From the IMG/VR virus record IMGVR_UViG_3300030090_006831, positions 1 through 30,344 of that record: 30,344 nt of DNA. The stretch is one strand, 5' to 3'. The notes below the pieces were generated by a model. The model was not told the origin of the DNA. It did no database searches and was given only the letters and a program-made list of their open reading frames with translations. Every line of letters starts with the position of its first letter. Position 1 is the stretch's first letter. The stretch is from a virus. Made by a program: the position numbers and the translations under genes. Positions 8,566 to 23,339 of the stretch are shown here, piece after piece.

Positions 8566-8582
8566 TGCTTAGTTCCTATTGG

Positions 8583-9485
8583 TTATCCGCCAGTCATTTT
8601 TTCCGCCGTACTGTCGAGGAAGCCCTTGACCATCTTCTGGAAGTCGCCACCGCGGAAGTCCATCGAGCGATTACGTGGATCCTTGACGGCATTCATTACC
8701 TGAGTGGCCCGAGCCGTATCCCCAGACTGAGGGGCGGTAACGGGCGGCGTATTGGTTTCATCTTGAGTGGCCGCATCAACCTCGGCCTCTCCCGAAGCAT
8801 GCCGCTCCCGCAGGCGCTGGTTGTTCAGCTCCCGCAAGAGTTGCGATGCATGATTCAGGCTAAAGCTGTTGCCATGTTTCTCCATGCCTTGCTGCGTAGT
8901 CTGTGCCTTCAACGCGCTGCGATCAAAGCCCGAGGTAACGTGGAGGCTGTCAAGAAGACCGTCCAGGTGGCTTTCGTACTGCGCCCGAATTGTCTTTTGA
9001 TCATCCATTGCCTGCCGAGACTCAACGTTGGCAACTTGATTGACCACCGGCTTAAGACGTTCATCCATAACGTTGTTAATCTCACGGCGGAACATATCCG
9101 TGAGATCTTTAACCCCATCTGGATCATCTGGAGCCATCCGGCTCAGACCTTCTTCTATAACCGACTTGGTCTCTTCCTTCGTAGGTTCGGACCCTGTATC
9201 AGAGCGCTGCTGAAGCTGTCCAGCAGTCCATTGCATCAGCCCGCCCACAATCTGCTTCAGATCGGTAGCGGTGACATAGTTGGGCTGCTCTTCGGCCGGT
9301 GGAGCCTCCGACGCGGATGCTGCTTCGGGCGCAAGTGCCGATGTATTTGGCGCAGGCGCCTCACCCCGCTCGACACGGTTCTGTTCGATAATCGTGTCAA
9401 AGTCCTCAGTGGTGATCTCCTCAGGCAACTGTGCCACCTCCGGCGGTGCCTCGGCACCAGCGACGGGCTGCGTTGCTTCACTCAT
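8583..9485 (-). CDS. Capsid scaffold protein
   Basis: The 300-residue product is acidic, rich in Ala, Glu, Pro and Gln at the N-terminus (about 1-70), with long charged helices in the middle (about 75-230) and a C-terminal helix ending FQKMVKGFLDSTAEKMTGG. It has no enzymatic motif. Composition and its place between portal and capsid genes are the classic signs of a scaffolding protein, which shapes the procapsid through its C-terminal helices and then leaves. The ATG is one base after the portal stop, with AGGGAG as ribosome site. Confidence 0.85.
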   Translation of the reverse strand: MSEATQPVAGAEAPPEVAQLPEEITTEDFDTIIEQNRVERGEAPAPNTSALAPEAASASEAPPAEEQPNYVTATDLKQIVGGLMQWTAGQLQQRSDTGSEPTKEETKSVIEEGLSRMAPDDPDGVKDLTDMFRREINNVMDERLKPVVNQVANVESRQAMDDQKTIRAQYESHLDGLLDSLHVTSGFDRSALKAQTTQQGMEKHGNSFSLNHASQLLRELNNQRLRERHASGEAEVDAATQDETNTPPVTAPQSGDTARATQVMNAVKDPRNRSMDFRGGDFQKMVKGFLDSTAEKMTGG

Positions 9486-9486
9486 G

Positions 9487-11649
9487 TTAGGCTACTCCCT
9501 GAGGCGCTTGCTGCTGCAATGCCCCGGTTTGCGCTAGTTGGTCGGCTACCTGGTCAGGTGCCCCCTTGGCGGCTTCAGCCGCCTGCATTTGCGCCTGCTG
9601 CCGCTGCTGCAGCATTTCGCGATGCATACCAGCGCGTTCACGTAAAAGCTGCTGCCGATCTTCGGGCAGCTGGCTGAACTCCGCCGTTAGCATGTAATCC
9701 CGTAGGATAGACAGCTGCACAGCGTCGTTGTCAATTCCCGGCTCTGGCTTCTCCGGATCACGTCCCCTAATAATCGCTCTCAGGACACGGCGGGCCTTCT
9801 TGGCATCATTGATATACTCAGATTCAAAGCCGTCAATGTCCAATTTTTCGAGTATTTTCCCACGGACTTCAGGTTGCCGGATGTCGCCCAGAAGGCCCAT
9901 CTCAGCTGCACGCAGAACCTTCTGCTGCCGAGCCGTATTGGAAAACTGCTGCCCCAAGGAAATTCGGACAGTCATATCCTCGGCGTTCTCAATATCAGCC
10001 CGAGAGTAGTGATAAACCTCGGTTTCTGCATTATCGCCGACAACGCGAATCATCCGAGAAGAACGCCAGTGTTTACGCACCAGACGCATCTTGCGCATCT
10101 CATGGTTAGAGAGAGCCTGACGCATCAACTTGACAGAGGGACCAAAACGCTTAAATGCCTGCTCAATTAAATGCTCTATGGCAGCGCCGGTCTCTGGCCC
10201 AGGAGGAACATCACCGGACAGCACTTCACGGGCGCCGGATACGTCTTCCATATCACGCAACGTCTGTGAGCGCTCCTCGATGACTTGGGCAGGGACTGGG
10301 ATTGGCGGAACCTGCTCTGGCTTGAAGCCACCAGAAGCATGCGGATCATAGTTAATCTCCAGGCCAGCCTGCCCAGTAATCTCAGTGACGCCAGAGCCGT
10401 CAGGGATAAGCCACTGCGCCGTCGCCATCTTCTTCCTATTCATTACCAGATGGCTGTCAATGCCATTAAGACGCTTCTGCTGTGGAATGAGATCGGAAAA
10501 AACAGAGGCGCCCCAGAAAAAACCAGGAATGTCACGATACTTTATAAGCTCGTATCCCAAGGTTCCATCGTCACAGTCCAGCGGACTTGTATGCAAAATC
10601 TGCCCATTAGCCTCGCAGATTAACAAGCCCTTAGGGAATAGCTCATTAGGCACATGGCGCACCCACTTATGAAGGACACGCTCCCGATTCTTATCAGATT
10701 CTACGCCAGAATGTCCATGCAGGTGTGTATTATACATTCCCTGCCACTCATCCAACTCAATCGACTCAGCGACAACATCCTTGGCCTTCGACCCGTATAT
10801 ATGCTTAATCTCATCCAAATCCATCGGGTCAACCTCGACAGTGAGGCGCAGCTTGTCGAAGGTTCGGGCAGGGCCAGGATACCAGTTTAGCAGATTAACA
10901 ACGCGCTCTTCAATCTCGCCAACCTTGACGGTGCGATAGCGCTGCTTGCCATTCTCATCTAAAACTGGTCGCTCCTGAAGCTCGATCTGCTCATTGCCTA
11001 AATCATCCAGGGCGTATACCTCGCCATCGGCAATAGTACCGCCGCAGCGCGGACATTGTGGCCCAGGACCAGGAAGCGGGAAAGAAGTGTCGCAATTAAG
11101 ACAACGCTTAATTGGATCGACAGCCGGACGCTCATCCAACTGCATCATCGGCTTACGCATGCGGCGACCAGCGCGGCCATTCCAGTTGCAGTGGATTACT
11201 GCATTGCCAGCTAGCACCAGCCAGCCAGTAGCAGGGATCAAGAGGCTGGTATCGGTCTTGAGGCGACGCCACTCAGAATGCGATATGCGCTGGGCAGCGT
11301 AGGAAGCTTCAATATCAGGCTGGTCTTCACCAGCCGGCAACCACTCCGGCATAGGATTGCCGGAAGTGAATATGTCTACGATACGGTCAAAGTGTTTGGT
11401 GAGATAGTTGGTGACCGGGGTGGGTATCCAGTCATCTAAATCGTGCTGAGTAAACTGCTGGGTATAGGGTAGATAGCGTATCCACTGGTCGCCCAGCAAA
11501 AAGTGCATCGCCTCGCGGATTCGGTACTCCAGACCAGGGCGCGCATTCTTTACATAATCCCAGCACGAAGAGACAAACTGAGCATGCTCTTCGGGGGTGC
11601 TGGGAGCCTTCTCAAGATTGGTGACCGGTGAGCCGGTGGAATTTCCCAT
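9487..11649 (-). CDS. Portal protein with a zinc-ribbon insertion
   Basis: This 720-residue protein is the dodecameric channel through which DNA enters and leaves the head. I chose ATG 11649 because AGAGGAG lies just before it; an in-frame ATG 15 codons upstream has no such signal. Typical portal features are the N-terminal helical clip/wing part (YRIREAMHFLLGDQWIRYLP, then PVTNYLTKHFDRIVDIFT), the middle LIKYRDIPGFFWGASVFSDLIPQQKRLNGIDS segment, the EVLSGDVPPGPETGAAIEHLIEQ stretch and a Gln/Ala-rich coiled-coil tail. Unusual is a four-cysteine pattern C183-x2-C186-x12-C199-x2-C202, a zinc-ribbon-like insert. P22-type portal homology is likely from length and order. Confidence 0.9.
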   Translation of the reverse strand: MGNSTGSPVTNLEKAPSTPEEHAQFVSSCWDYVKNARPGLEYRIREAMHFLLGDQWIRYLPYTQQFTQHDLDDWIPTPVTNYLTKHFDRIVDIFTSGNPMPEWLPAGEDQPDIEASYAAQRISHSEWRRLKTDTSLLIPATGWLVLAGNAVIHCNWNGRAGRRMRKPMMQLDERPAVDPIKRCLNCDTSFPLPGPGPQCPRCGGTIADGEVYALDDLGNEQIELQERPVLDENGKQRYRTVKVGEIEERVVNLLNWYPGPARTFDKLRLTVEVDPMDLDEIKHIYGSKAKDVVAESIELDEWQGMYNTHLHGHSGVESDKNRERVLHKWVRHVPNELFPKGLLICEANGQILHTSPLDCDDGTLGYELIKYRDIPGFFWGASVFSDLIPQQKRLNGIDSHLVMNRKKMATAQWLIPDGSGVTEITGQAGLEINYDPHASGGFKPEQVPPIPVPAQVIEERSQTLRDMEDVSGAREVLSGDVPPGPETGAAIEHLIEQAFKRFGPSVKLMRQALSNHEMRKMRLVRKHWRSSRMIRVVGDNAETEVYHYSRADIENAEDMTVRISLGQQFSNTARQQKVLRAAEMGLLGDIRQPEVRGKILEKLDIDGFESEYINDAKKARRVLRAIIRGRDPEKPEPGIDNDAVQLSILRDYMLTAEFSQLPEDRQQLLRERAGMHREMLQQRQQAQMQAAEAAKGAPDQVADQLAQTGALQQQAPQGVA

Positions 11650-11721
11650 ACACTCCTCTGAATGCAAAATAACATCATAGAGCGCATGCGTCAACTAAAA
11701 CTGCAACATATTGGGTGCAGC

Positions 11722-12477
11722 CTACAGCCCCATAAGCGCAACAGTCCCTGCGAAGTCTGGGTGCACCTCCACATGAGAACGAAAGAGCAGGTCTGCTTCA
11801 GAGGGCTGCAAATGCTTGGAAAGGACACTGAGAAGAGGGCGGATAGCCTCAACCCAATCGGCAGGGTGTATTCTATATAGGATAGAGTCACCCATTGGGA
11901 TCTGTAGGATTTTGCCCTGCTTCTGCTTGTCAGTCAGATAGACAGCATTGGGCAGATTCATCTTCGACTGGTTGCTCTCAGACAAAAGCCAATCCATGAT
12001 TAGATTGCCACAGATGGTTCGCAACTGAATAGCGTCAGCCTCAAAGGTCTGAGGCGCCCCGGCCGTACGAGTAACCGGCAGAGTATCGCCGTTGACTCCT
12101 GTCGGAGGCTTGGTCGGTCGAGATGGAACCGGCTGAATAACTTCCTTGGGCTTAGAAAACCACTCAGTCTGCCTTCCTGGAATACGCTCGCCTGTAGCAG
12201 TAGAAGCTCCGCCAGATAGCGATTTATGCCCCTGCTTGGTGAAATGCCCGCCAGAGTTATAGTCATCTGGACGGATCTGGTGCAGATACTGCCCCGCTGA
12301 GTCACGCCCCTGAACGCCTCGCGTAGCCAGCAAATTTATACGCTCTTCGGAAAGCTCTCCCAACTCTCCTGTGCGAGCATGCTGCTCTGCCTCCACCTCT
12401 TCTGGCGCCTTCATCTTCGTAGACGCCATAAGATGCTCTACGTCAATCTCCTCAGGAAGCCCTTCTTGTTCCGCCAT
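11722..12477 (-). CDS. Hypothetical protein between terminase and portal
   Basis: The 251-residue product has an acidic N-terminal helix (MAEQEGLPEEIDVEHLMAS), a middle Gly/Ser/Pro-rich linker (about 75-140) and a compact C-terminal domain (about 145-251) with IQLRTICGNLIMDWLL, LTDKQKQGKILQIPMGDSILYRIHPADW and a final LLFRSHVEVHPDFAG strand. No family is recognised. It overlaps the small membrane protein gene as TAATG. Position suggests a packaging or head-assembly accessory. Confidence 0.65.
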   Translation of the reverse strand: MAEQEGLPEEIDVEHLMASTKMKAPEEVEAEQHARTGELGELSEERINLLATRGVQGRDSAGQYLHQIRPDDYNSGGHFTKQGHKSLSGGASTATGERIPGRQTEWFSKPKEVIQPVPSRPTKPPTGVNGDTLPVTRTAGAPQTFEADAIQLRTICGNLIMDWLLSESNQSKMNLPNAVYLTDKQKQGKILQIPMGDSILYRIHPADWVEAIRPLLSVLSKHLQPSEADLLFRSHVEVHPDFAGTVALMGL

Positions 12478-12719
12478 TAGACGCCCTCAACATCTTCTAC
12501 TGTGGCCCGTCTCGGGCCGTGAGATCGAAGATGATCCATCGGATCTATTGGACCATGAAGTTCCACATCCAGCTGCGCATTACGCACCCGAAGCGCTAGC
12601 TCACGATAGAGCTTCTGAGTATCAGTACGTTCTTGACGCTCCCGATTAAGCTGAGCCAGCAAGGTGACGATTACAAAACAAAGAGCCACTAGAGCAAAGT
12701 AGGGAAACCATTCTATCAT
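12477..12719 (-). CDS. Small single-pass membrane protein
   Basis: An N-terminal membrane helix (FPYFALVALCFVIVTLLA, residues 5-22) is followed by a charged coiled-coil-like region (NRERQERTDTQKLYRELALRVR) and a polar end. At 80 residues with N-out or N-in anchor and a soluble coiled coil, it could be a spanin- or holin-like lysis factor, but it lies between terminase and portal and lacks a decisive motif. It is coupled to both neighbours by ATGA and TAATG overlaps. Confidence 0.6.
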   Translation of the reverse strand: MIEWFPYFALVALCFVIVTLLAQLNRERQERTDTQKLYRELALRVRNAQLDVELHGPIDPMDHLRSHGPRRATVEDVEGV

Positions 12720-13450
12720 GACATATACCTCCCCATGCCAGAGTCATAATCAGGCGTGCGTTCTTTAGCTTTAACCCGTCGGATCAGCCTTTCCGAGTAA
12801 TCCTCATCGTCATCTTCAACCTCCCGAACCGGGATTCCCTGGACAGTAGCCGGCAACTCATTCTGCTGCCGATGCGCCTGTAGTGTTGCAACCTTCATCA
12901 TCTCAAGACAAATAAGCCAAGCCATAACCAAATCATCATAGCTTCCTGGAAGTCCCTGGAACTTATTCCCGTGCAACGCAAAGTTCTTAAACTGATTCAA
13001 CAGCTTGCGAGAGCGCGGCTTAGCTGTCTTGTCCTGCATCCATCGACGCCCCTGTGCGATGAGCATCGGACGCGTTAGCTCGGAAGTATTCCAACCCAGC
13101 TTGGATGTTGGGTCTCTATACGCCCGTCGTGTCTCGCGACGCTCGAAATAAATATTAGGATAGCGCAACTGCTTGAGGACCAGATTAGAAGTGGCATCCT
13201 TGTTGTTTTCGATACCAATCAATGCCGTGTTGTAGTGCGTGCCCAGCATCCAACACAACTCCCCAAAAGCAATAGGCTCGATCTTCCCCTGAAGCTCGGC
13301 TACCTGCTCTCCAGTGTTGACGCAGCCCACCTGGGCCACTGAGTCGTCACCGCGCTCCAAGCCTTCTGCCGGGTCGCCGCCCAAAGCATAGACCCAGCCA
13401 GGAACAGGCGGCTCAAAAATACGCAGATCGTAGGGGACACCTCTAGGCAT
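12716..13450 (-). CDS. terL: Terminase large subunit, nuclease part
   Basis: This 244-residue frame is the RNase-H-like nuclease half of a large terminase, which cuts the concatemer during packaging. The metal-binding acids are visible: D26 in YALGGDPAEG, E81 in LIGIENN, and D172/D173 in SYDDLVMAW. The ATG at 13450 is in the same reading frame as the ATPase part upstream and is separated from it only by one TGA (13471-13469) and six sense codons. No ribosome site precedes it at a useful distance, which makes independent initiation doubtful. It ends in an ATGA overlap with the membrane protein gene. Confidence 0.85.
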   Translation of the reverse strand: MPRGVPYDLRIFEPPVPGWVYALGGDPAEGLERGDDSVAQVGCVNTGEQVAELQGKIEPIAFGELCWMLGTHYNTALIGIENNKDATSNLVLKQLRYPNIYFERRETRRAYRDPTSKLGWNTSELTRPMLIAQGRRWMQDKTAKPRSRKLLNQFKNFALHGNKFQGLPGSYDDLVMAWLICLEMMKVATLQAHRQQNELPATVQGIPVREVEDDDEDYSERLIRRVKAKERTPDYDSGMGRYMS

Positions 13451-13468
13451 GATAAAAGTATAAAGAGA

Positions 13469-14479
13469 TCATATCCCCTCATATTCTTCTACTAAGGGGG
13501 TTTCCACCGACTGATAAGAAACTAGGCCCTGCTCATCAACAAAAAGCTCGCCCAACTCTGGATCTTCAACGTCTTGCTCCATCTCACGAATCAGAGAGCC
13601 AGGAAAGGCTAACTTAACACCTATAGGCACAAACATTCCGTAGACACGCGCATCCAATTCATCCTCACCATACTCCTCTAATAGCCGCTGCTTTGCTTCA
13701 GGAGGAATATAGGGGTTATCCAAAAGGCTCCAGTTATGGAACTCAATGCCCTTCTCTCGGCGCGGCAAATACAATTCCTCGTAGACCCATGAGATCCCGC
13801 GAGATCGTTCGTAGATAGGCGTCATCGTCCCAAGCATAAATCCATCCCGGTCAGTAAGACGCTGACGGCATTCCTGATAGACGTCGATAGGCTGCTCCTC
13901 ATCCAGGTGAACCTTACCCAAGGATGTCCCCTGAAAGGTGCGCCGTTTCTGGGTAGCAAACTTAAAGCGAATAGAACTGCCGTTGACAAACTCGCAGAGA
14001 TGATCCGAGAACCCGGCTTTCCGAGTCCAGGTAGTGGAATCCTTGACCAGCTGCCACCCCATACCTAACTCATCCAAACCTAAAACATGCTCAGCAAAAG
14101 TTTGTTCAATGACATCGATTGAGGTCTCCTCGGTATCGGAGACAATCCACATAGGAAAGGGTTCGTGAAAACGCTCTGACGGCCCCAGCGTGATGGGATC
14201 CAAAAGCATCATATCGCAGAAATCTTCGACAAGGCCGCGCAGCGTCTTGCCGGATCGATTGCCGCATACGTCCCACTTATTTCGGGCATGCGAACGATGC
14301 GTGCCTACCTGCGCTGGGTTCCCGCTAGTCCCCTTGAATGGCTCAAAGCGCATCGCCGGAACCGCCATAAGACGCCAGACATCCTTGAACTCCTTGGGAT
14401 TCTCAGCCTCGAAAAGGGTCGCCAGCCCTGGCTCCTCGTTCATCATACGAGCCAGCTGCGCAACTTCACTCAGATTCAT
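13469..14479 (-). CDS. terL: Terminase large subunit, ATPase part
   Basis: This is the motor half of the large terminase. Walker A is GNRSGKT (residues 73-79), Walker B with the catalytic acid is VHLDEE (190-195), and GTMTP follows as the coupling motif. I chose ATG 14479 (336 residues), nine bases after AGGA and overlapping the HTH gene by 14 bases; the frame is open 34 codons further up, but that part lies inside the HTH gene. It ends at a TGA after LVEEYEGI, just where the nuclease domain should begin, and the missing domain continues in frame downstream. A full-length protein of about 586 residues would have normal size. Confidence 0.9.
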   Translation of the reverse strand: MNLSEVAQLARMMNEEPGLATLFEAENPKEFKDVWRLMAVPAMRFEPFKGTSGNPAQVGTHRSHARNKWDVCGNRSGKTLRGLVEDFCDMMLLDPITLGPSERFHEPFPMWIVSDTEETSIDVIEQTFAEHVLGLDELGMGWQLVKDSTTWTRKAGFSDHLCEFVNGSSIRFKFATQKRRTFQGTSLGKVHLDEEQPIDVYQECRQRLTDRDGFMLGTMTPIYERSRGISWVYEELYLPRREKGIEFHNWSLLDNPYIPPEAKQRLLEEYGEDELDARVYGMFVPIGVKLAFPGSLIREMEQDVEDPELGELFVDEQGLVSYQSVETPLVEEYEGI

Positions 14480-14681
14480 TGAGTTTTTTCCTGGCCGGAG
14501 CGCCCGAGCCGTAACACTTGAAATAGATGTCGTCGAGCCTATGCGCGGGATAAACCCGATAACCAAGACTATCCCGACCAACCGTGATTAAGCCCTCGTC
14601 CTCCCAGCGACGCAAGGTGGCTTGTGATATGCCCATACGACGGGCAGCCTCACGGATGTGAAGAAATTCAGTCAGACTCAC
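14466..14681 (-). CDS. Small MerR/excisionase-type HTH protein
   Basis: The 71-residue product contains a winged-helix DNA-binding core: FLHIREAARRMGISQATLRRW (residues 6-26), then EDEGLITVGRDSLGYRVYPAHRLDDI. This is the pattern of MerR-like or excisionase-type domains that recognise one half-site. The GTG start at 14681 has AAGGA five bases upstream and overlaps the resolvase gene end by 14 bases. Directly upstream of terminase, it might be a transcription regulator or a small-terminase-like DNA recogniser; a separate TerS candidate exists at 17.2-18.0 kb, so regulation is my preference. Confidence 0.8.
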   Translation of the reverse strand: MSLTEFLHIREAARRMGISQATLRRWEDEGLITVGRDSLGYRVYPAHRLDDIYFKCYGSGAPARKKLNESE

Positions 14682-15012
14682 GAGTTTCCTTCACTAACTC
14701 AAGATAACGATGATCCTGATACATTTTAGTAAAAAGTTCAAAGTCCATTACGATTAATGGCTCGGCTCGATCGCGAGACAGAATAAGAAGGTCATTGTCG
14801 CCCTTCCACTTCTCTAGAGTGCGAAAACCTTCACCTGACTTCCGAGCTTTAACCTCGGCTCGGAGACTTCCAATTTGTACGTCCCCAGAGTAAGATCCTC
14901 CAGCTGCGCCGGAGAGAGGCACGCGCTCAGCTGTAATGCCCCTTTCCGCAAGGAGACCAACGACTTTCCGCTCGACGCGGTTGCCTTTGTCACGGCTGGC
15001 GCGGCCTCCCAT
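14668..15012 (-). CDS. Holliday-junction-resolvase-like PD-(D/E)XK nuclease
   Basis: From the ATG at 15012 (TGATG overlap with the upstream gene) the product has 114 residues. It follows the Hjc-type plan: RDKGNRVERKVVGLLAERG with E14, SGAAGGSYSGDVQIG with D44, and AEVKAR with E53 and K55, then a GFRTLEKWKGDNDLLIL segment like the resolvase core. Such enzymes cut four-way junctions and help clear branched DNA before packaging, which fits the gene's place right before terminase. An ATG 23 codons upstream exists but would overlap the neighbour. An alternative is another small nuclease of the same fold. Confidence 0.85.
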   Translation of the reverse strand: MGGRASRDKGNRVERKVVGLLAERGITAERVPLSGAAGGSYSGDVQIGSLRAEVKARKSGEGFRTLEKWKGDNDLLILSRDRAEPLIVMDFELFTKMYQDHRYLELVKETRESD

Positions 15013-15224
15013 CAGCGAGTAAAAAACAGGCGTTGTCGCTCCATGGTCTCCTCCAGGTCGACCGCCAGATGCAGCGCCCACATGTCATCGTAGGCGCGCA
15101 GCGTGATCGGCTCCCCGTGACGTGGGGTGATCTCTGGGCAAGAGATGCCGTCCGCATTGGCATGAATCACCATGCCGCTAAAGCGGCTCATCTGCGCCCG
15201 TTTGAGCAAGTTGCCGATCTTCAT
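15012..15224 (-). CDS. Small hypothetical protein
   Basis: The 70-residue product (MKIGNLLKRAQMSRFSGMVI..., ending MERQRLFFTR) has mixed alpha/beta character, with no motif I know. It is coupled upstream by ATGA and downstream by TGATG, which supports translation. It is in the leading part of the late operon with the resolvase and HTH genes. Confidence 0.6.
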   Translation of the reverse strand: MKIGNLLKRAQMSRFSGMVIHANADGISCPEITPRHGEPITLRAYDDMWALHLAVDLEETMERQRLFFTR

Positions 15225-15535
15225 TGCGAAGTTGCACTGATCTTCGATTCGTGGAATTCATGCATCTGCAAAGCCAAGGGGTCGAACCGCTCTTTTGCTT
15301 TGGTATATAAATCCCGCGCCGACCGGTTTGAAGGTCGGTAGCGATCTATGAAATCAACGTCCGACATATTTGAGATCCACCCCTTACCGACGATAACCCA
15401 ATTCGGCGACCGCTTCAAGTGGAAGGCATAAACAGTTCTCCGACTGCCTTGATCCCTATCCCGGCGTCTGTAACGCGGCAGTTCTTCGCGGCCAAGTTTC
15501 GTCGAAAGCAAGTTAGTCTTTTGTCTTTGTTGCAA
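15221..15535 (-). CDS. First gene of the leftward operon, hypothetical
   Basis: I prefer the TTG start at 15535 (104 residues) because AAGGGG lies seven bases before it and about 29 bases after the predicted leftward transcription start; a GTG at 15568 in the same frame would lie upstream of that start. The product is basic (LPRYRRRDRDQGSRRT) with a central VYAFHLKRSPNWVIVGKGWIS strand pair and a helical C-terminus with RYRPSNRSARDLYTKAKERF. No family is recognised. It might bind nucleic acid. Confidence 0.6.
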   Translation of the reverse strand: MQQRQKTNLLSTKLGREELPRYRRRDRDQGSRRTVYAFHLKRSPNWVIVGKGWISNMSDVDFIDRYRPSNRSARDLYTKAKERFDPLALQMHEFHESKISATSQ

Positions 15536-15546
15536 TATTTCGCCCC

Positions 15547-15575
15547 TTGTCAATATGGGTATATACACCTATATT
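15547..15575 (+). promoter_or_regulatory. Rightward sigma-70-type promoter of the nuclease-like gene
   Basis: TTGTCA (15547-15552), a 17-base spacer and TATATT (15570-15575) predict a start near 15582, at or next to the ATG at 15583. The message would be leaderless. The spacer contains the palindrome GTATATAC, a possible operator. Confidence 0.75.
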
Positions 15576-15599
15576 AAGACCTATGGATATTCTTGTCAA
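15571..15599 (-). promoter_or_regulatory. Leftward sigma-70-type promoter of the late operon
   Basis: On the minus strand a perfect -35 TTGACA (15599-15594) is followed after 17 bases by TAATAT (15576-15571), with a predicted start near 15564. This is close to consensus and is the only good promoter seen before the long leftward gene block. Its -10 overlaps the -10 of the rightward promoter. Confidence 0.8.
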
Positions 15600-16302
15600 G
15601 TACGACGAGGTGCCCGCCAATACACCCCGCATAGGCTTTTTTTCGCCCGACATCGAGGAACGGGCACATGCCATGGCCTCCCTCGTCGCTTATAAGAGAA
15701 AATGGAAGTGGATCCCCAGGGATTTGACACCCTATACCGACTGGTGGCCAAATATTGCCCGAGTCGAACTGCCCGAGAATTTATTGCCAGACCTTAACGC
15801 CGAAGCACAGCGACGCATTGAGAATAAACGCGGTCCCGCTGGACGCCAGGACCAGCGCATAGGACGCGGGAACCTGGATATGATGGGCGTGAGAGGAGAA
15901 GCCGCTTGGTGCATCTTCCTAGGACTAGATCCCAAACAAGTGCTTACCTTTGACTCTGACAGAAGAAAGTGGGGCGACCTTAATGTCCCTAATACACCCT
16001 TCGTCCTAGAAGTGAAAACCTGCATGACCCGAATGCCAAATCCACACATGATTCTGGCCCCATCAGTTCGTGAACGCAACCAAGCAAAAGCTTCCGCATA
16101 CTGCCTAGCAATGCCCGACGCCTTCTTTCCTAAAGATTTAGAGAACTTCAAGAACTTCATCCTCGTAGGATGGCAGCGCGGAGGCTATGTGCGACGATAC
16201 GCCCAGAAGCGACAGTTGGGGAAAAAGGCCGGGTGGTCGATAACCGTTGATGAGCTAAAACCACCCCGTGACCTTAAAGAAAGATTGAAGCGCTACCAAT
16301 GA
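15583..16302 (+). CDS. PD-(D/E)XK nuclease-like protein
   Basis: From ATG 15583 the product has 239 residues. The acid triad of a restriction-endonuclease-like fold is visible: E106 in GVRGEAAWCIFLGL, D132 in WGDLNV and E143-x-K145 in FVLEVKT, in the correct order and spacing. The N-terminus (1-95) is Trp- and Arg-rich and may bind DNA; the C-terminus is strongly basic (RRYAQKRQLGKKAGW). Substrate is unknown; host DNA breakdown, recombination or end processing are possible. The start is chosen from the promoter: the -10 box ends seven bases before this ATG, and no ribosome site is present. The frame is open to 15547, which lies inside the promoter. Confidence 0.7.
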   Translation: MDILVKYDEVPANTPRIGFFSPDIEERAHAMASLVAYKRKWKWIPRDLTPYTDWWPNIARVELPENLLPDLNAEAQRRIENKRGPAGRQDQRIGRGNLDMMGVRGEAAWCIFLGLDPKQVLTFDSDRRKWGDLNVPNTPFVLEVKTCMTRMPNPHMILAPSVRERNQAKASAYCLAMPDAFFPKDLENFKNFILVGWQRGGYVRRYAQKRQLGKKAGWSITVDELKPPRDLKERLKRYQ

Positions 16303-16311
16303 TGTCTTTTC

Positions 16312-16340
16312 TTGACTTCGCACAACAAACACCGTATCAT
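16312..16340 (+). promoter_or_regulatory. Sigma-70-type promoter of the endolysin gene
   Basis: TTGACT (16312-16317), 17 bases, then TATCAT (16335-16340) lies between the two plus-strand genes. The predicted start near 16347 leaves only about five bases before the endolysin ATG at 16352, so the message would be nearly leaderless. Confidence 0.75.
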
Positions 16341-16351
16341 GAGAAGACTGC

Positions 16352-16768
16352 ATGAATCGTATACTGAAGATAACCGATCACTTTTCCATCGATGTCAATC
16401 GGGCGCCAGAAGACGACCTGATAGCCTGCAGCCACTGTGGGCTAATCAAGATCGACGACCTCTTCTGGGCACACATGGAAAAGGTCGAAACCTTGCGCAT
16501 CCGATGCGGATTTGGTATCCGGATGACCTGCGGATACCGATGCAAAGAACATAATGACGCCGTCGGCGGAGCCACTAATAGCCTACACCTCCATTTTGCT
16601 ACGGATCTTCAGCCGTGGAAATCCAACGACAACCACCTCAACCTCATGTGCGAGATGGCCGCATCTATGGACTTTGATGGAATAGGCAAATATGACAGCT
16701 TCGTACACCTCGACAGCAGAGGCTTGCTCGATAGGCCGCAAGCCCGATGGGATTACCGCTCAAGATAA
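16352..16768 (+). CDS. Endolysin, peptidase M15 family
   Basis: The 138-residue product matches small M15 zinc peptidases that cut the peptide bridges of peptidoglycan. The core is GYRCKEHNDAVGGATNSLHLHF, with candidate ligands H79 and D85, and FDGIGKYDSFVHLDSRG with H119, ending RWDYR. An N-terminal CSHCG (26-30) is typical of phage members. The usual HxxGxAxD motif appears here as HLHFATD, one residue shorter and without the glycine, so activity should not be taken for granted. No signal peptide is seen, so a holin or other membrane factor would be needed. It lies outside the late block with its own promoter. Confidence 0.85.
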   Translation: MNRILKITDHFSIDVNRAPEDDLIACSHCGLIKIDDLFWAHMEKVETLRIRCGFGIRMTCGYRCKEHNDAVGGATNSLHLHFATDLQPWKSNDNHLNLMCEMAASMDFDGIGKYDSFVHLDSRGLLDRPQARWDYRSR

Positions 16769-16776
16769 CAAGTCCC

Positions 16777-16977
16777 ATGGAACCCTACGCCCCCAAGATA
16801 ACTTCTCTTAAAGACCTCTACCAAGCTTGCCTTGATAAATCGCGCAAAGACAACGACTACTTCGATCGGAATGCCAAATTCTTAGCTCAATATCTTGAAG
16901 ACACACCCAGAAAACGCGTGCGACAACTGCCAGACACGGCGCGTGCGAGGGTGAAAATGTTGATGAGATACGTCTGA
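16777..16977 (+). CDS. Small hypothetical protein after the endolysin
   Basis: From ATG 16777 the product has 66 residues (MEPYAPKITSLKDLYQACLD...), charged and helical, ending in RVKMLMRYV. An in-frame start at 16747 would overlap the endolysin by 22 bases. No membrane segment is present, so it is not a holin. Its close spacing suggests co-transcription with the endolysin. The opposite strand also has an ORF here, which I judge less likely. Confidence 0.5.
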   Translation: MEPYAPKITSLKDLYQACLDKSRKDNDYFDRNAKFLAQYLEDTPRKRVRQLPDTARARVKMLMRYV

Positions 16978-16984
16978 AATAAGA

Positions 16985-17135
16985 CAAGCCGCCCATAGCG
17001 CGAGCGGCCATATAAACTCCTGACAGTCGCGCTAAAACTCCACCGCTTGAATGCGGAAAGCTGTAGCCAGTGTGAGGCGGGGACGCCCACCACAGTATGA
17101 CCCCTGGCTGTATATCCAAGGGTTGGAGTGTCCTA
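16985..17135 (+). ncRNA. Structured intergenic RNA candidate
   Basis: Between the convergent ends of two operons lies a gene-free 264-base stretch (16978-17241) with nested inverted repeats. GCCGC pairs with GCGGC near its left end, CCGC with GCGG follows, and AGCCAG pairs with CTGGCT around an inner hairpin whose stem GGCG/CGCC is capped by a GGGA (GNRA-type) tetraloop and extended by GTG/CAC. A further hairpin GGAGT-gtcct-ACTCC lies downstream. No U-tract follows. It may be a non-coding RNA or remnant; strand is assumed. Confidence 0.4.
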
Positions 17136-17241
17136 CTCCAGTAGGTTGCATGCCCCAGCTATAAAAAGCCTCTAAGCATGCCCATGCCTGACTGCAAACA
17201 GGTGCCTACAAACTTAGGAAGGGAGACGGGTGCCCCCGATC

Positions 17242-17976
17242 CTATGCGTCGGGGCGGTGAGCCTGGGTGGACCCGGGGTGGTCGGGAAGCTCAAGAGAAG
17301 AAAGCTGACCCTGACGTCGACGCCGCTCTTCCCATTGCTCCAGAGGCGAAGCCTTCGGACGACCCAAAGGCTCATGACGGCCGTCAACCCTCTCCTCCGC
17401 TTCCATAACCTCACCCTCTTCAATCACTTCTATAGACGGCGGCTCCACTTCTACAGGTGTGGCCTTAGGAATGTCCTCCTCTAATGCCACCGCCATCTCT
17501 GCACGAGCCGCCAAACCACTGCGGCGGTCTACTCCCTCAACACTGATCTCTACCTTCCGACCCTTTGCCTTCTCTAACAACATCTTAGCGCCAGATACCG
17601 CAGACTCTAACATCTCCTCCATGCCACCACTGGGATGTAAGGCCGTAGCCAGCTGCTGGTCTGTTAGCGTCTTGCGAACAAAATCCAAGTAAATCTCCGC
17701 CGCACGGATACTACCACTCTCAGCCGCATCACCCAACGTCCGAAGTATATTCGGGACGCGGAATAAACCGCCCAGAGCTACCCCCTGCAAAGCGTGCTTT
17801 ACCCCAGCATCCGTACGCAAAAGCCTTGATAAAGATGCCACACTCACACCCTGCTGAGTTGCAAAACTAGGCAAATCAATCGCCTCGCCTCGCAACTCAG
17901 CAGGCGTTCCCAGCCAATCCACAAAACGTTGCTTTAAAGCCTTCTCGCCGTCCGTCTCTACTAATGACTTAGACAT
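17242..17976 (-). CDS. terS: Terminase small subunit-like HTH protein
   Basis: The 244-residue product (start ATG 17976, after GAGG elements) has an N-terminal helical DNA-binding domain with LPSFATQQGVSVASLSRLLR (about 33-52), then ALGGLFRVPNILRTLGDAAESGS and RAAEIYLDFVRKTL. The pattern of HTH, then a repeat of A..G....A..YL, is typical of phage small terminases that recognise the packaging site. The second half is a long acidic and Pro-rich region with a basic Gln/Arg end. It is separated from terL by the divergent promoter and the plus-strand endolysin block, which is unusual. A transcription regulator is the alternative. Confidence 0.65.
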   Translation of the reverse strand: MSKSLVETDGEKALKQRFVDWLGTPAELRGEAIDLPSFATQQGVSVASLSRLLRTDAGVKHALQGVALGGLFRVPNILRTLGDAAESGSIRAAEIYLDFVRKTLTDQQLATALHPSGGMEEMLESAVSGAKMLLEKAKGRKVEISVEGVDRRSGLAARAEMAVALEEDIPKATPVEVEPPSIEVIEEGEVMEAEERVDGRHEPLGRPKASPLEQWEERRRRQGQLSSLELPDHPGSTQAHRPDA

Positions 17977-18565
17977 CCTCAACTTCCTCAAGGTTTTAGT
18001 GATCCTACATCCGGGAAGCTTCTCTCACCTACCGGGGGGTAACCTTCAGGGGGGAACCGCCCCCTAGGGGGGCCTCCACCGCGCGGCATTCGTATACGCA
18101 CCCGCATACGCGCGCCGAAGCCTAACGCAAGACTCAACCTACACGTAGAAGCCAATGTCCGACATACTAAGTTCCACATCACATCAGCTTCACTTCTACT
18201 ATATACATACCCGTCGCTTCGCGCCAGTTCGCACCCACAGCAACACCGGTCATGGGCTGGTGCTAGCCTGGGAGTAGCCTGCCTGCCTGGGTCGCCGAAA
18301 GGTACGCGGGTCACGGTGTCAAGTGATCCGCAGGGCGTGCATTTCCAAGGCGCTCTCGGCGCGTGCTGCGGATCCTGGGTGTGAGGCGGTTGATTCTATT
18401 ACGGCGTGGGCCTCACATCCCTCCGTAGCACGCTTGTTCGCAAGCAAATGCACAAGCGGACACTGGACACCTACGGCAGTGCACTCGCTACTCTCCGAGG
18501 CGCGTATTTCGGCAAGCACCCAGACAGGGCAGTAGCGCTTTGCTGGGACACTTAGGAGATAGGAC
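17977..18565. other. GC-rich gene-free region with many hairpins
   Basis: No convincing gene is seen in these 589 bases. They contain a G6/C5/G6 block around 18036-18072, a pair of near-repeated GTATACGC/GCATACGC boxes (about 18092-18112), and further right the stems GATCCGCAG/CTGCGGATC, TGTGAGGC/GCCTCACA, GCTTG-ttcg-CAAGC and CGCTACT/AGTAGCG. They separate the divergent TerS-like gene and the early operon, so both promoters and perhaps the origin should be here. I find no near-consensus promoter. Confidence 0.6.
18325..18537 (+). ncRNA. Structured leader or small RNA candidate
   Basis: Four perfect stems follow each other: 18325-18333 with 18366-18374 (9 bp), 18380-18387 with 18411-18418 (8 bp), 18432-18436 with 18441-18445 (UUCG loop), and 18486-18492 with 18531-18537 (7 bp, enclosing CCGA/TCGG). 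They end about 30 bases before the ATG of the 296-residue gene. A 5' leader with regulatory structure or a separate RNA would fit; the strand is inferred from the gene. Confidence 0.4.
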
Positions 18566-19456
18566 ATGGAAGCGCACGAGTTGCCTCAACGCATCGAAGC
18601 TCGACGGAAGAAGCTCATGAACAATTCACTTTCAATTACGCATGGAGGACAGGTCATGCGCACGATGAAGCCGGACTTCGGTCCAGACAACAAGCATCAC
18701 TTCTACCCTCGCCCCTTGGAGGAGATGTCGGACGACGAGCGGGACCGCTGGCTGGGTAGGACGCCACGTTCCAAGCGCGTTCGTGGGTTGGAGCCGCGCA
18801 AGGCGGAGAGCAGATTACACGCCATGAACATGGCTCGGAAGCTGTCTCGACGTCGTGGGGCAAAGCCGCCCATCGAGGTAAAGGTGGTCTACTGCGCCAA
18901 GCGTGGCTGGTGGGTATTCCCACAGCGCAGCCCCAAGGACGTCACGCTTGAGCGCGGTCTCTTCTACGACGGCGTTTACACTCACCCCAAGCCCTACCAC
19001 AAAGAGGATGAGATGCCGCCAGCGTGGGACATCTGTCTTCAGACGTGGGATGGCGAGGACATCTCCATCGAGGTCCATGAGTTCGACGCCCGTGTAGCCC
19101 AAGGCAAGGCCCTCGACAAAGGGCCGGCAGGTGCGAGGGTCATAGACTGCATTCAGATAGACGCAGACCGAGGTGCATGGCTGGCGGAGGTCAGTGCAGC
19201 ACCGGGTGCCAAGGCGTTGCCGCCGGAGCAGGTGGACGAAGACGCCGAGGTGCGCCAGCACGAGGTGGCTACGTGCCAGCAGCTACCGGACGACAAGCCG
19301 AGGGTAGACGGCCTTGTAGCTGCTGCCGAGGAGGCTGGATTCGACTACCTCTCCGGCGACTACTACCTGGGAGAAGACGCCAAGCCGGTGGCTGAAGCCA
19401 TAGCCATTGCGGTCACCCGCAGCGAAGCCGGCGTCGCCCACGCCGTAGCAGTATAA
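18566..19456 (+). CDS. First gene of the early operon, unknown function
   Basis: The 296-residue product has a strong ribosome site (AGGAG, seven bases before the ATG). The first 100 residues are basic (RTPRSKRVRGLEPRKAES, MARKLSRRRGAK) and the rest is acidic, with VVYCAKRGWWVFPQRSPKD, GLFYDGVYTHPKPY and a final EEAGFDYLSGDYYLGED segment. No known domain is recognised. The codons are visibly richer in G and C than those of the genes from 20.4 kb on, hinting at a different history. A strong terminator follows directly, so it forms its own unit. Early takeover or DNA-binding function is possible, but unsupported. Confidence 0.7.
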   Translation: MEAHELPQRIEARRKKLMNNSLSITHGGQVMRTMKPDFGPDNKHHFYPRPLEEMSDDERDRWLGRTPRSKRVRGLEPRKAESRLHAMNMARKLSRRRGAKPPIEVKVVYCAKRGWWVFPQRSPKDVTLERGLFYDGVYTHPKPYHKEDEMPPAWDICLQTWDGEDISIEVHEFDARVAQGKALDKGPAGARVIDCIQIDADRGAWLAEVSAAPGAKALPPEQVDEDAEVRQHEVATCQQLPDDKPRVDGLVAAAEEAGFDYLSGDYYLGEDAKPVAEAIAIAVTRSEAGVAHAVAV

Positions 19457-19462
19457 CCTCTG

Positions 19463-19501
19463 CCCGCCGGGGAGCCTTCGGGCTTCCTGGCGGGTTTTTT
19501 T
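19463..19501 (+). terminator. Intrinsic terminator
   Basis: A 14-bp stem (CCCGCC-GGGGAGCC pairing with GGCTTCCT-GGCGGG) with a UUCG loop is followed by seven T. This is a textbook rho-independent terminator six bases after the stop of the preceding gene. Confidence 0.95.
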
Positions 19502-19508
19502 AGTTGTC

Positions 19509-19537
19509 TTGCCTTTCAATTACGGGGTGGGTATGAT
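19509..19537 (+). promoter_or_regulatory. Sigma-70-type promoter for the SSB operon
   Basis: TTGCCT (19509-19514), 17 bases, then TATGAT (19532-19537), placed right after the terminator. The predicted start near 19544 leaves a leader of about 44 bases with AAGGAG eight bases before the ATG at 19588. Confidence 0.7.
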
Positions 19538-19587
19538 GGGCCTGGGGGGCGAACGCAATTAACCCGAAGCTCTAAGGAGTAAAGCCG

Positions 19588-19806
19588 ATGAAACTGAAAA
19601 CAGAATCTCCCATGTTATCTCGTCCTCCTGAGGTGTTTCAGAATGTGGAAACGCAAGAAGACGACTGCCTATCCACTTGCGTCATAGACGGCGCCCGGTA
19701 CTACTGCACTCTACAGGAAGACCACGATGGCGACCACCAAGCAGAAGGCTCTGACGATCACATCCACGCCCACTGGCGTCACACGCCAAAGACAATTCCG
19801 TATTAG
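19588..19806 (+). CDS. Small Cys/His-rich protein, possibly zinc-binding
   Basis: The 72-residue product has C..C-type residues and many histidines in TCVIDGARYYCTLQEDHDGD and HIHAHW near the end. The CTLQEDHDGDHQ pattern recalls the CxLP.GH.G.H motif of many small phage proteins (common in actinobacteriophages) of unknown function. Strong ribosome site and own promoter. It precedes SSB in one operon. Metal binding is inferred from the Cys/His spacing. Confidence 0.7.
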   Translation: MKLKTESPMLSRPPEVFQNVETQEDDCLSTCVIDGARYYCTLQEDHDGDHQAEGSDDHIHAHWRHTPKTIPY

Positions 19807-19870
19807 AAAATTGTTGGACATTCATTCCATTACGCGTTCAGCGTTCACCTCGTAACAGGAGAGAATAGTC

Positions 19871-20308
19871 ATGCCAGAATTGAAGATGCCGAACCTGAAC
19901 CAGCTAACTGTCTCAGGCAGGCTCACGCAGGATCCGGATGTCACCAGCATGGCCAGCGGCCAGGACCGCGCCTACTTCCGCATCGCTGTCAACCGCAGCT
20001 ACAGGGTTGGCGAGGAGTGGAAGGAGGAGACCAGCTTTTTCAGCGTTGTTGCCTGGGGGCATGCTGCTACTCGTGCGGGAGAAAACCTGTCCAAAGGAGA
20101 CCCCGTTATCATCGAAGGGCGTCTTCGCAGCTACGACCCGCCTGCTGGAGATGACGGAGAGCGTCGCGCCTCGGTAGTCGAGATCACAGCACAGCGCGTT
20201 GTAAAGCTCACCTCCAACGGCGATAGCAACGGCGATAGCAACGGCCACTCCAGCGAGGAGGACCGCACCAGCTTCCCGCCCGAATCAACCGAATACTCCG
20301 ACCTTTAA
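19871..20308 (+). CDS. ssb: Single-stranded DNA-binding protein
   Basis: The 145-residue product has the OB-fold of bacterial-type SSB at residues about 6-115: LNQLTVSGRLTQDPDV, AYFRIAVNR, ETSFFSVVAWGHAA, NLSKGDPVIIEGRLRSYD and VEITAQRVVKL. A tandem 12-bp repeat at 20219-20242 encodes an NGDS linker, followed by an acidic tail ending EYSDL, shorter and different from the usual D-D-I-P-F. It protects single strands during replication and works with the annealing protein encoded further on. Ribosome site AGGAG is nine bases before the ATG. Confidence 0.95.
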   Translation: MPELKMPNLNQLTVSGRLTQDPDVTSMASGQDRAYFRIAVNRSYRVGEEWKEETSFFSVVAWGHAATRAGENLSKGDPVIIEGRLRSYDPPAGDDGERRASVVEITAQRVVKLTSNGDSNGDSNGHSSEEDRTSFPPESTEYSDL

Positions 20309-20381
20309 GGCACACGCCCAGCCCACAGGCGCTGTGCCACGTGGGCGCTCCCCACCCCCCTGTCCTCCGGGGAGCGCCCAC
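20309..20381 (+). other. Two hairpins between SSB and the next gene
   Basis: GGCACA (20309-20314) pairs with TGTGCC (20333-20338), and a perfect 13-bp GC-rich stem follows (20341-20353 with 20369-20381, 15-base loop). No U-tract follows, so an RNA-processing or mRNA-protecting element is more likely than an intrinsic terminator. The next ribosome site begins six bases later. Confidence 0.65.
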
Positions 20382-20399
20382 ACATTAAGGAGAAGAGCG

Positions 20400-20723
20400 A
20401 TGCTCCCTGCAGTCGAATCCTTCATACAGCGACACATAACCTTCGAACGCGCACTTAAAGCAGTGAATTTCACGCCAGAAGACTGGAGTCTATACCCTCC
20501 AATCAAACAATGCCGACGGTACAGCCAAGAACGGATCCACAGCGTCGCAGTTGACCTGAATGAGGGAGTGCGATTAGCCTACGCATCCAGCCCCGATAAG
20601 AAAGTGTTTAAAGAGAGGATGCTTAAGCTGCTGAGTATACACAAAGAGTGTATCTCTAATACTAACAGTTTTCACTGGCTAATTAACGACATTTCTAACT
20701 ACCTCTATGGGCCAAGGGCATAA
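20400..20723 (+). CDS. Small hypothetical protein
   Basis: From ATG 20400 (AAGGAG nine bases before) the product has 107 residues, mostly helical: MLPAVESFIQRHITFERALK, then DWSLYPPIKQCRRYSQER, SPDKKVFKERMLKLLSIH and a closing HWLINDISNYLYG. No motif is recognised. It follows the strong hairpin behind SSB and is probably an early gene. Confidence 0.65.
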   Translation: MLPAVESFIQRHITFERALKAVNFTPEDWSLYPPIKQCRRYSQERIHSVAVDLNEGVRLAYASSPDKKVFKERMLKLLSIHKECISNTNSFHWLINDISNYLYGPRA

Positions 20724-21012
20724 TGCCCCAGAAAGCATTGTAACCGCCGCGACTCTAATGAAAGACATTCCCACCCACTGGACCTGCCCGTATTGCCAGC
20801 AAGAGAACACCCACTATCGACATTGCGACACAGCTTGTCGGTGCGGCCGATGTGAATACATGGCAGAATGGTGGGATGTAGATTTCAATTTTTCATTACA
20901 GCGATGGTATGCAGAAAAAGATCCACTCTCACATCACTATACCGAGAGAGGGGGTCAAGTCCGCAACAAGGCCAAATTCAATCGCTTTGGTGAACCGTAT
21001 GGAGGCAATTAG
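20707..21012 (+). CDS. Small zinc-ribbon-like protein
   Basis: The 101-residue frame contains CPYCQQENTHYRHCDTACRCGRC (residues about 27-49), with paired cysteines and histidines that could hold one or two zinc ions. The end is charged with aromatic residues. Two starts are possible: ATG 20707, overlapping the previous gene by 17 bases, and ATG 20758; neither has a good ribosome site. The last codons include GGAGG, the ribosome site of the next gene. Confidence 0.6.
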   Translation: MGQGHNAPESIVTAATLMKDIPTHWTCPYCQQENTHYRHCDTACRCGRCEYMAEWWDVDFNFSLQRWYAEKDPLSHHYTERGGQVRNKAKFNRFGEPYGGN

Positions 21013-21270
21013 ATGAATGGCCGGTTTTATTGGAGACGCAATCAGGATCTACAAGATATGAAGAATATGGAAGAGATTTTCCTCATCTCTACACCCAAGT
21101 TGCTGGAGGAGAAGGTGCGACTGCAACTAGAACTACAGCGTCAGATGGATCAGTTGCACGACCGTATGGAGCATGTCAGACTTGAGATAGAAGACATCTC
21201 TGCTGACCTTGTAGCCCCCGACTATGCATGCTTTGACAAGGAAGACTATGTCCTTCAAGATGCGCCATGA
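21013..21270 (+). CDS. Small coiled-coil protein
   Basis: The 85-residue product has a clear coiled coil in the middle (LLEEKVRLQLELQRQMDQLH and following DRMEHVRLEIEDIS) and a short acidic end. The ribosome site GGAGG lies seven bases before the ATG, directly after the upstream stop. No family is known. Confidence 0.7.
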   Translation: MNGRFYWRRNQDLQDMKNMEEIFLISTPKLLEEKVRLQLELQRQMDQLHDRMEHVRLEIEDISADLVAPDYACFDKEDYVLQDAP

Positions 21271-21339
21271 GAAATAATCGCACTAAAAAGGTGAAAAATA
21301 AAGACAGTTTTCACTCTTTCATCTACAGGGAGAAAGACA

Positions 21340-22167
21340 ATGGCTGATGAAACTCACATCCTAACATACTCGGACAAGAATGCCCGTGAGGTTACCTTCG
21401 ATGAGCTTCCTCATATCCAGCCCCTTGAAGAGAAAACAGCTACCTATACACCACTTCCGCACTACGACTTTGCCCAGAATGTAGCCCGACTGGGTGTTGA
21501 GATGCTGGGACCGCATGGTTTCGAGTTAAACGGCAGTCGCATTGTTGTAAACAAAGACGCCGGCCGTATGTTTATGGTGCAAGCTTTCAATCACAATGAG
21601 AGAAGTGACCTGAAGCTAGCCGTAGCTGGACGCAACTCAACGGATAAGTCATGCTTGGCTGCTGTAGCCATCGGCGCCCAGGTGACAGCATGTCTCAACC
21701 TGTGCATAGGCGGTAAGATCCGCGTTGTACGCAAGCATACGGGAGACATCTTCTCCTACCTGAATGACAATCTGGTGCTAGCCTTTCACAAGGCCACCGA
21801 TGGATGGAACGACATGCAGGCAGATGTAGAAGCCATGAAGAAGTCCACCCTTGACGACCGTGAAGCATGTCGTCTCATTGGACAGTTTTGGCACTCAGGT
21901 CTCCTCATGCCGCAGCAGATGACGGCCGTGCGCAAACGCTGGGAAAATCCCCCGCAAAACGAGTTTAAAGATCGAACACTATGGTCGCTATACAACGGTG
22001 TCACTGACGTTTATAAGCAGCTGCCACCGACAACAATAATGCAAAAGCACCTGAAGTTACATGCCCACATGCGAGAGGAAATATTGTATCCCGAGAAACA
22101 GAACGAACGGGAAGAGCTGTTACTTGCCGGAGATCACGACGTCGACACCCACGAACGAGCAGAATAA
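21340..22167 (+). CDS. DUF932-like phage/plasmid protein
   Basis: The 275-residue product resembles the DUF932 (phage-plasmid-like, TIGR03299-type) family of unknown function. The typical core is visible: ELNGSRIVVNKDAGRMFMVQ, a GRNSTDKSCLAAVAIGAQVTA segment like the family's RNSHD.S..A....V..C, then CLNLCIGGKI, VRKHTGDI and a long helical part with FKDRTLWSLYNGVTDVYKQ. These proteins are often found beside recombination genes in phages and plasmids. Ribosome site GGGAG is seven bases before the ATG. Its stop codon lies inside the closing stem of the structured RNA that follows. Confidence 0.7.
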   Translation: MADETHILTYSDKNAREVTFDELPHIQPLEEKTATYTPLPHYDFAQNVARLGVEMLGPHGFELNGSRIVVNKDAGRMFMVQAFNHNERSDLKLAVAGRNSTDKSCLAAVAIGAQVTACLNLCIGGKIRVVRKHTGDIFSYLNDNLVLAFHKATDGWNDMQADVEAMKKSTLDDREACRLIGQFWHSGLLMPQQMTAVRKRWENPPQNEFKDRTLWSLYNGVTDVYKQLPPTTIMQKHLKLHAHMREEILYPEKQNEREELLLAGDHDVDTHERAE

Positions 22168-22500
22168 AAGACTCTGCGCTGCGGCAGCAGCGAGGATTAA
22201 AGGGGCTGAATCCTAAGTTAATTCTCAGGATGTCGCTTCTGGGGAAGGCGAATAGCGATCTGTGCCAGCGGCAAATGCGACGCTTCTGCCGAAGCTAAGT
22301 TCCAACTGACCCTGGCACGGGTAAGTGACGCTTTAAAGGTAGGCAGCAGGGGAACACTGCCCAGAGTCTATAGACGGAGAAGAGTAGGTATGCCTAGTAG
22401 GTCCGCCAGGGCCCTCGCACCGAAAAGCTACTGAGCAAATCCCTGCCATGACCAGCCAGAGAAACGCTATCTGGCCGCAGGTTCTTCTTCGTCTTTTATT
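22163..22500 (+). ncRNA. Large structured non-coding RNA candidate, first element
   Basis: A perfect 10-bp closing stem (AATAAAAGAC at 22163-22172 with GTCTTTTATT at 22491-22500) encloses 318 bases without a credible gene. Inner stems include GTGCCAG/CTGGCAC (22262-22268, 22312-22318) with nested CGGCA/TGCCG, GGCAG/CTGCC (22342-22346, 22357-22361), and CCTGC/GCAGG (22442-22446, 22477-22481) with nested GCCAGA/TCTGGC. AATCCT at 22209-22214 can pair either with AGGATT (22193-22198) or AGGAT (22227-22231). It does not show the conserved sequences of RNase P, tmRNA or 6S RNA that I know. Confidence 0.7.
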
Positions 22501-22505
22501 TAAAA

Positions 22506-22652
22506 TGGAAGCCGGTGCCTCTGTCTGGGGAGGGAGAGGTTAACGCCGTTGAGACGAACCACCTCACTCCAAGAGGAGAGCGCCAGGGAAAGCCCCCGGC
22601 GCAGGAGGATCCGAACGTCTCCCGGTTCACCGGCTTCCACTTTAATTTTTTT
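22506..22652 (+). ncRNA. Second structured RNA element ending in a U-tract
   Basis: A perfect 12-bp stem (22506-22517 with 22628-22639) closes a multi-branched fold: CCTCT/AGAGG, GAGACG/CGTCTC (22551-22556, 22616-22621), and within it CTCC-aaga-GGAG (22567-22578) and GCGCC/GGCGC (22580-22584, 22598-22602). Seven T at 22646-22652 follow the closing stem, so the same element could end transcription. It begins five bases after the first element. A riboswitch-type terminator or the 3' domain of one large RNA are both possible. Confidence 0.7.
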
Positions 22653-22683
22653 GACTCGAAACCCAGCATAGGATCAGCCAGCT

Positions 22684-22905
22684 ATGAAAACATTGGTAGC
22701 CCTCACCGAAAAGCAAATATACGTCATCATGAGCGCCCTTCGTTATTATCACTTGTGGAGTGGGCACCCGATCGTCGAACGGGGGGCGGGGAGGAGTGCC
22801 TTCAAAGCGTTGTCGGAGGCACTGACCCCTTACGAGAATCGCGAAGATCGCGGGGAGGTGACCCATGGAAATAAAGGCAACACCTACCACTCAGATAAAA
22901 GTTGA
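22684..22905 (+). CDS. Small hypothetical protein
   Basis: The 73-residue product starts MKTLVALTEKQIYVIMSALR, a helical pattern seen in many small phage proteins, with HLWSGHPIVERGAGRS and FKALSEALTPYE behind it. It is the first gene after the structured RNAs and overlaps the next gene by 41 bases. The ribosome site is weak (AGGA, ten bases before the ATG). Confidence 0.6.
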   Translation: MKTLVALTEKQIYVIMSALRYYHLWSGHPIVERGAGRSAFKALSEALTPYENREDRGEVTHGNKGNTYHSDKS

Positions 22906-23170: not shown

Positions 23171-23339
23171 AATCATTGATCAATTTACTATGGGTTCTCA
23201 GACGTTCTACACTGAAGCAAACTCACATGCCGACTTCTACGGCCGTGCCCTTTCCCTGGGGGTTATTGACCAAAAGGAGTACGAGGAGATCAAGGATTCC
23301 TTCAACGGCTACAGCTGGTCTGTGGCTCATAATCACTAA
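23112..23339 (+). CDS. Small hypothetical protein
   Basis: The 75-residue product (MTPTQRLMQIVKIAMKADHK..., ending GYSWSVAHNH) overlaps the previous gene by 59 bases and the next by a TAATG junction. It has a predicted helical fold with DFYGRALSLGVIDQKEYEEI. AGGA lies nine bases before the ATG. Function unknown. Confidence 0.55.
   Translation: MTPTQRLMQIVKIAMKADHKIIDQFTMGSQTFYTEANSHADFYGRALSLGVIDQKEYEEIKDSFNGYSWSVAHNH

Follow-up and report, generated by a model that had tools for sequence, protein, structure and literature searches.

A probable sigma70-type bidirectional promoter between the terminase operon and a nuclease-like/endolysin operon of a phage

Bidirectional promoters are defined by -10 elements that overlap on opposite strands and by reciprocal pairing of -11A and -7T (PMC10268837). 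Their transcription starts lie 7–25 bp apart, most commonly 18 bp, a spacing that two reports attribute to this pairing (PMC10268837; PMC12825309). The five natural E. coli examples studied had a basal activity too low for the two directions to compete, and at E. coli bidirectional promoters a stronger -35 element lowered the opposite transcript, which amounts to mutual interference and not bistability (PMC12825309). Among other control regions, that of the EcoRV restriction-modification system comprises divergent promoters with overlapping, mutually exclusive polymerase sites and a nuclease gene to one side; the system also has a methyltransferase and is regulated by a C protein (PMC5333194). 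In the immunity region of phage PY54, strong and separate divergent promoters without a common -10 produce leaderless mRNAs for cI and cro, both repressor genes, and Cro binds a mapped operator (PMC4488713). The soxR/soxS promoter of E. coli is also read both ways, and its MerR-type activation uses misaligned promoter elements (PMC12825309).

Here we describe a junction in a 30,344-nt stretch of phage DNA (hereafter the window) at which a terminase/structural operon on the minus strand diverges from a nuclease-like/endolysin operon on the plus strand. The rightward (+) promoter consists of a -35 element, TTGTCA (15547–15552; 5/6 consensus, read directly and rescanned), and a -10 element, TATATT (15570–15575), with a predicted start at 15582 (T) or 15583 (the A of an ATG). 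The leftward (-) promoter consists of a perfect -35, TTGACA (15594–15599; 6/6 consensus, within codons 4–6 of the right-hand gene), and a -10, TAATAT (15576–15571), with a predicted start at 15564 (A). Both spacers are 17 nt. An earlier note on this DNA had proposed two promoters with overlapping -10 boxes, and direct reading and rescanning reproduce them base for base, with five bases in common (15571–15575). As that note had also claimed, each -35 lies in the downstream region of the other promoter (about 12–17 nt past the other's predicted start), CTTGTCAA is present as direct repeats (15546–15553 and 15592–15599), and GTATATAC lies within the core (15559–15566). The first CTTGTCAA box contains the rightward -35 and overlaps the Shine-Dalgarno-like AAGGGG of the leftward transcript (15548–15543); the second is the source of the leftward -35.

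The predicted starts are 18 bp apart (19 bp if the rightward transcript begins at the A of the ATG), and -11A of each promoter pairs reciprocally with -7T of the other, at 15571 and 15575. With this pairing, with -10 elements that overlap on opposite strands and with the predicted separation, the site fits the bidirectional class in every testable sequence feature. It resembles the prokaryotic bidirectional promoters of Warman et al. 2021 (as cited in PMC10268837 and PMC12825309) in its common -10, its predicted 18-bp start separation, its reciprocal -11A/-7T and its divergent genes. It differs from the five promoters studied in PMC12825309, which are too weak to compete, in that both of its -35 elements are near consensus at 17 bp, and it differs from known bidirectional promoters more widely in that one product is predicted to be leaderless and the genes are phage late genes. 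The likeness to the EcoRV region lies in the divergent promoters, the overlapping and mutually exclusive polymerase sites and the nuclease-like gene on one side, but neither a C-protein regulator nor a methyltransferase was found here, and the right-hand gene is PDDEXK-like by motif only. With PY54 the site has in common strong divergent phage promoters and a leaderless mRNA (predicted here), whereas its first genes are not recognised regulators, any operator is putative and its two promoters share a -10. As for soxR/soxS, the site is a two-way promoter with a MerR-like gene in one of its operons; however, both spacers here are 17 bp long and the MerR-like ORF has only 71 aa.

The site is thus probably a sigma70-type bidirectional promoter that is loaded either way, one polymerase at a time, with a leaderless rightward mRNA and with competition setting the ratio of the transcripts. 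On our best reading of the sequence, about 50 bases would drive packaging and structural genes in one direction and a nuclease-like/lysis set in the other, as a strong and tidy bidirectional promoter and not as a new type of switch. We infer promoter activity, start sites and competition as follows. One AT-rich core (TATATTA) would serve as the -10 on both strands, with a near-consensus -35 at 17 bp on either side, so that polymerase would load in either orientation, one at a time; the earlier claim that RNA polymerase cannot occupy both promoters together thereby gains support, as a prediction from the shared -10 bases. Leftward loading would start near 15564 and yield an mRNA for the terminase/structural operon with a leader of about 29 nt that carries the AAGGGG. 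Rightward loading would start at or beside ATG 15583 and yield a leaderless mRNA for the nuclease-like gene and then the M15 endolysin. The two orientations would compete and so fix the ratio of the two transcripts, competition being the expected state because both -35 elements are strong.

The right-hand gene (15583–16302, +) encodes 239 aa with a PDDEXK-like motif (E106...D132...EVK 143–145). It gave no family match, and its protein has no close relatives in annotated phages or in a single-protein scan of viral contigs; structure prediction gave a mean pLDDT of 49 (two sequences), and Foldseek returned nothing at E <= 0.001, so that the model was set aside. The next gene rightward encodes the M15 endolysin (16352–16768, +). 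The promoter-like site that ranks second in the window (TTGACT-17-TATCAT, 16312–16340) ends 11 nt short of its ATG at 16352 and is possibly, from its position, a lysis promoter in its own right, giving a very short leader. The leftward operon opens with a gene (15221–15535, -) that has a TTG start behind the AAGGGG and no family match; an alternative start for it, GTG 15568, was dropped, as the predicted leftward transcription start lies downstream of it. There follow, all on the minus strand, a PDDEXK_15/Holliday-junction resolvase-like gene (14668–15081, ORF limits as listed, the true start probably lying further in), the MerR-like helix-turn-helix ORF (14466–14681) just ahead of the terminase gene, and the ATPase part of the terminase large subunit (13469–14482), which served as the reference gene in the search for relatives. 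The large terminase is split across the group into separate ATPase and nuclease ORFs (window 12716–13450 and 13469–14482; L003 4974–6442; L007 379–5572, where L numbers denote loci in other viral contigs), with an M15 endolysin-like gene between the halves in L002/L003 and several genes between them in L007. The window holds no Rfam or tRNA feature. A strong intrinsic-terminator-like hairpin (19462–19495; 15 pairs, of which 11 are G-C, then T6) follows the gene at 18566–19456.

The leaderless start is predicted from the layout of the rightward promoter. Seven nucleotides separate its -10 from ATG 15583. Upstream of this ATG, pairing with the anti-Shine-Dalgarno amounts to -1.4 kcal/mol, whereas most of the window's other ATG-start genes reach about -5 to -13; weak scores also occur at a few other listed starts, some of them probably misjudged. 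The start thus has the two marks of leaderless genes, a -10 that ends some 6–7 nt ahead of the start codon and the lack of a Shine-Dalgarno sequence. The same layout recurs in the outward promoters of L009 (TTGACA-17-TATATT-6-ATG), L003 (TTGACC-17-TATATT-6-ATG) and L005 (TTGATT-17-TATATT-6-ATG), all without a Shine-Dalgarno sequence and all facing away from the terminase operon, as in the window. The first outward genes differ: L009 has a 78-aa ORF, followed by a 256-aa homologue of the 239-aa protein (25% identity, E 1e-18 in a single comparison). The similarity to the L009 protein extends upstream of the next ATG (15670), which supports the start at 15583 and led us to reject ATG 15670.

An E. 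coli sigma70 weight matrix was used to score both strands of the window (60,628 positions); the host's sigma factor may differ. The two promoters come 1st and 3rd of the 60,628 positions, at 14.4 and 13.8 bits. Promoters of that strength occurred 0.67 times per Markov shuffle on average (60 shuffles), and an overlapping pair of such strength in 0/60. Since TATATTA is TAATAT when read from the complementary strand, the second -10 costs almost nothing; what counts as independent evidence is a perfect TTGACA placed precisely 17 bp away. The excess over chance is confined to the top-scoring cluster: a plain consensus count over 8000–24000 showed no excess of promoter-like sites (7 versus 10.8 expected from shuffles). 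That count and the AT-richness of the segment are what could be expected if these were functionless promoter-like words in AT-rich intergenic DNA. We hold this to be extremely improbable in view of the two ranks at a divergent junction, the empty shuffles and the top-ranked promoters of relatives, which sit at the same place.

Relatives were found through the terminase and capsid proteins (21 terminase loci and 3 capsid loci, on contigs that are partly the same). None was found among bacterial and archaeal genome contigs, and when phages were searched with the junction at the DNA level, the sole match was 38 nt long (E 0.5). Both divergent promoters stand near the top of the locus in L005 (ranks 2 and 3), L016 (1 and 2), L023 (1 and 3), L026 (1 and 3), L028 (1 and 2) and L011 (1 and 6), and the outward promoter alone is strong in L009 (rank 2) and L003 (rank 1). 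Judged from these predictions, strong divergent promoters at this junction are conserved in relatives. The geometry of the overlap is not, because the predicted start-to-start distances vary, from 18 bp in the window to 99 in L005, 63 in L016, 28 in L023, 111 in L026, 88 in L028 and 1 in L011. Conservation of the spacing, which the earlier note had named as its own test, therefore fails, relatives having 1, 28, 63 or about 90–110 bp, or a single strong promoter, and the exact arrangement of the window is known from one genome. In L016, the locus's two strongest promoters face apart and take their -35 from one and the same TTGTCAA box (4165–4171). In L011 (1847–1870), divergent predicted starts 1 bp apart lie between an HTH_17/MerR-like gene and a DUF5675 gene ahead of the terminase. 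Relatives also carry an M15 endolysin or DUF5675 gene inside the terminase operon itself.

A reciprocal partner of the outward promoter at 18 bp exists in weaker form in L005 (score 9.5) and L009 (score 5.4). In L009, the closest relative found, this leftward-type partner is merely TCCACA-16-TAATAT (rank 302), and L003 has no good reverse partner promoter, so that reading in both directions may be a peculiarity of this phage. These weak partners, together with the retention of the leaderless promoter in L009, L003 and L005, would suit a site at which the rightward promoter alone works and the leftward one arises incidentally, from the symmetry of the -10 and a chance TTGACA in the right-hand gene. 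We find this very unlikely, as the leftward promoter combines a perfect, optimally spaced -35 with rank 3 in the window, an A at its predicted start and a Shine-Dalgarno-like leader, and no other leftward promoter of similar strength was seen a short way upstream of the late operon. A broader proposal is that mutual exclusion upstream of the terminase operon is maintained in the phage group while its geometry drifts (a common -10 here, one -35 box for both in L016, starts that coincide in L011 and promoters nested in L023), the core being a hard-wired, regulator-free divider between lysis/nuclease and structural expression through polymerase competition; this seems quite unlikely.

In viral contigs, we scanned for two -35 boxes at 17/17 bp around TANNNTA, with the wrong spacing of 14/14 as control. 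The 17/17 scan gave at least 119 sites and the control 78. By simple ORF calling, 28 of 119 sites (24%) among the matches listed lay at divergent junctions, compared with 2 of 78 (3%) in the control (Fisher p 2.6e-5, which is optimistic because some of the 28 are on related contigs; about 19 appear independent by eye from core sequences and neighbours). Several of the doubly strong sites found elsewhere have cI/cro-like genes on both sides (L061/L094, L071).

The earlier note had read the site as a switch between the endolysin/nuclease side and the late operon. Mutually exclusive promoters at that divergent junction are supported; a dedicated switch is not, since both arms are late-type, no regulator is linked and the published E. 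coli results would lead one to expect competition for occupancy and not bistability. Competition would fix a ratio and is by itself no switch, for which a regulator would be needed; such a protein may bias the ratio or close both promoters. The cI/cro-like form of this idea, in which a phage protein on a 24-bp palindrome or on the CTTGTCAA boxes flips transcription between the arms, we consider unlikely. The palindrome (15552–15575; imperfect, 10/12 pairs, unique in the genome) covers the leftward start and the rightward spacer and speaks for this form as a possible operator. It is statistically weak, however, with 1.2 expected per 30-kb shuffle and 19/5000 local shuffles, and was rejected as an operator, being near chance and absent from L002 and L003. 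Two further long imperfect palindromes occur at 5615–5640 and 24940–24965 (TTTACGATATATCGTAAA; GGTAAGTATTACGAGGAATACTTACC). As a genome-wide binding site, CTTGTCAA was rejected as well: it has only 3 copies, the third at 21233–21240 on the other strand, and 7/100 shuffles reach that number. MerR-type promoters have a spacer of 19–20 bp with a dyad inside. Both spacers here are 17 bp, so the MerR-like ORF is unlikely to act as a classical MerR activator. A family search of the first genes of the two arms (15583–16302 and 15221–15535) found no HTH family and no regulator gene at the junction of the window. Some points favour regulation nonetheless: the doubly strong sites flanked by cI/cro-like genes, the divergent immunity region of PY54, where strong promoters yield cI and cro mRNAs without leaders (PMC4488713), and the gene that diverges from the terminase operon in relatives, which can be regulator-like, of Cro/C1-type HTH in L020 and L023 and HTH_17/MerR-like in L011. 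The HTH genes on this outward side keep a regulated version alive for the group.

For the window itself, a bidirectional promoter driven by competition remains our preferred reading. The bidirectional promoters studied so far are mostly too weak for directional competition, and a natural site with two strong -35 elements lends itself to asking whether competition between polymerases is enough to set an expression ratio. The conserved leaderless start and the recurrent strong divergent promoters point to this junction as the control centre of a phage group not otherwise characterised.
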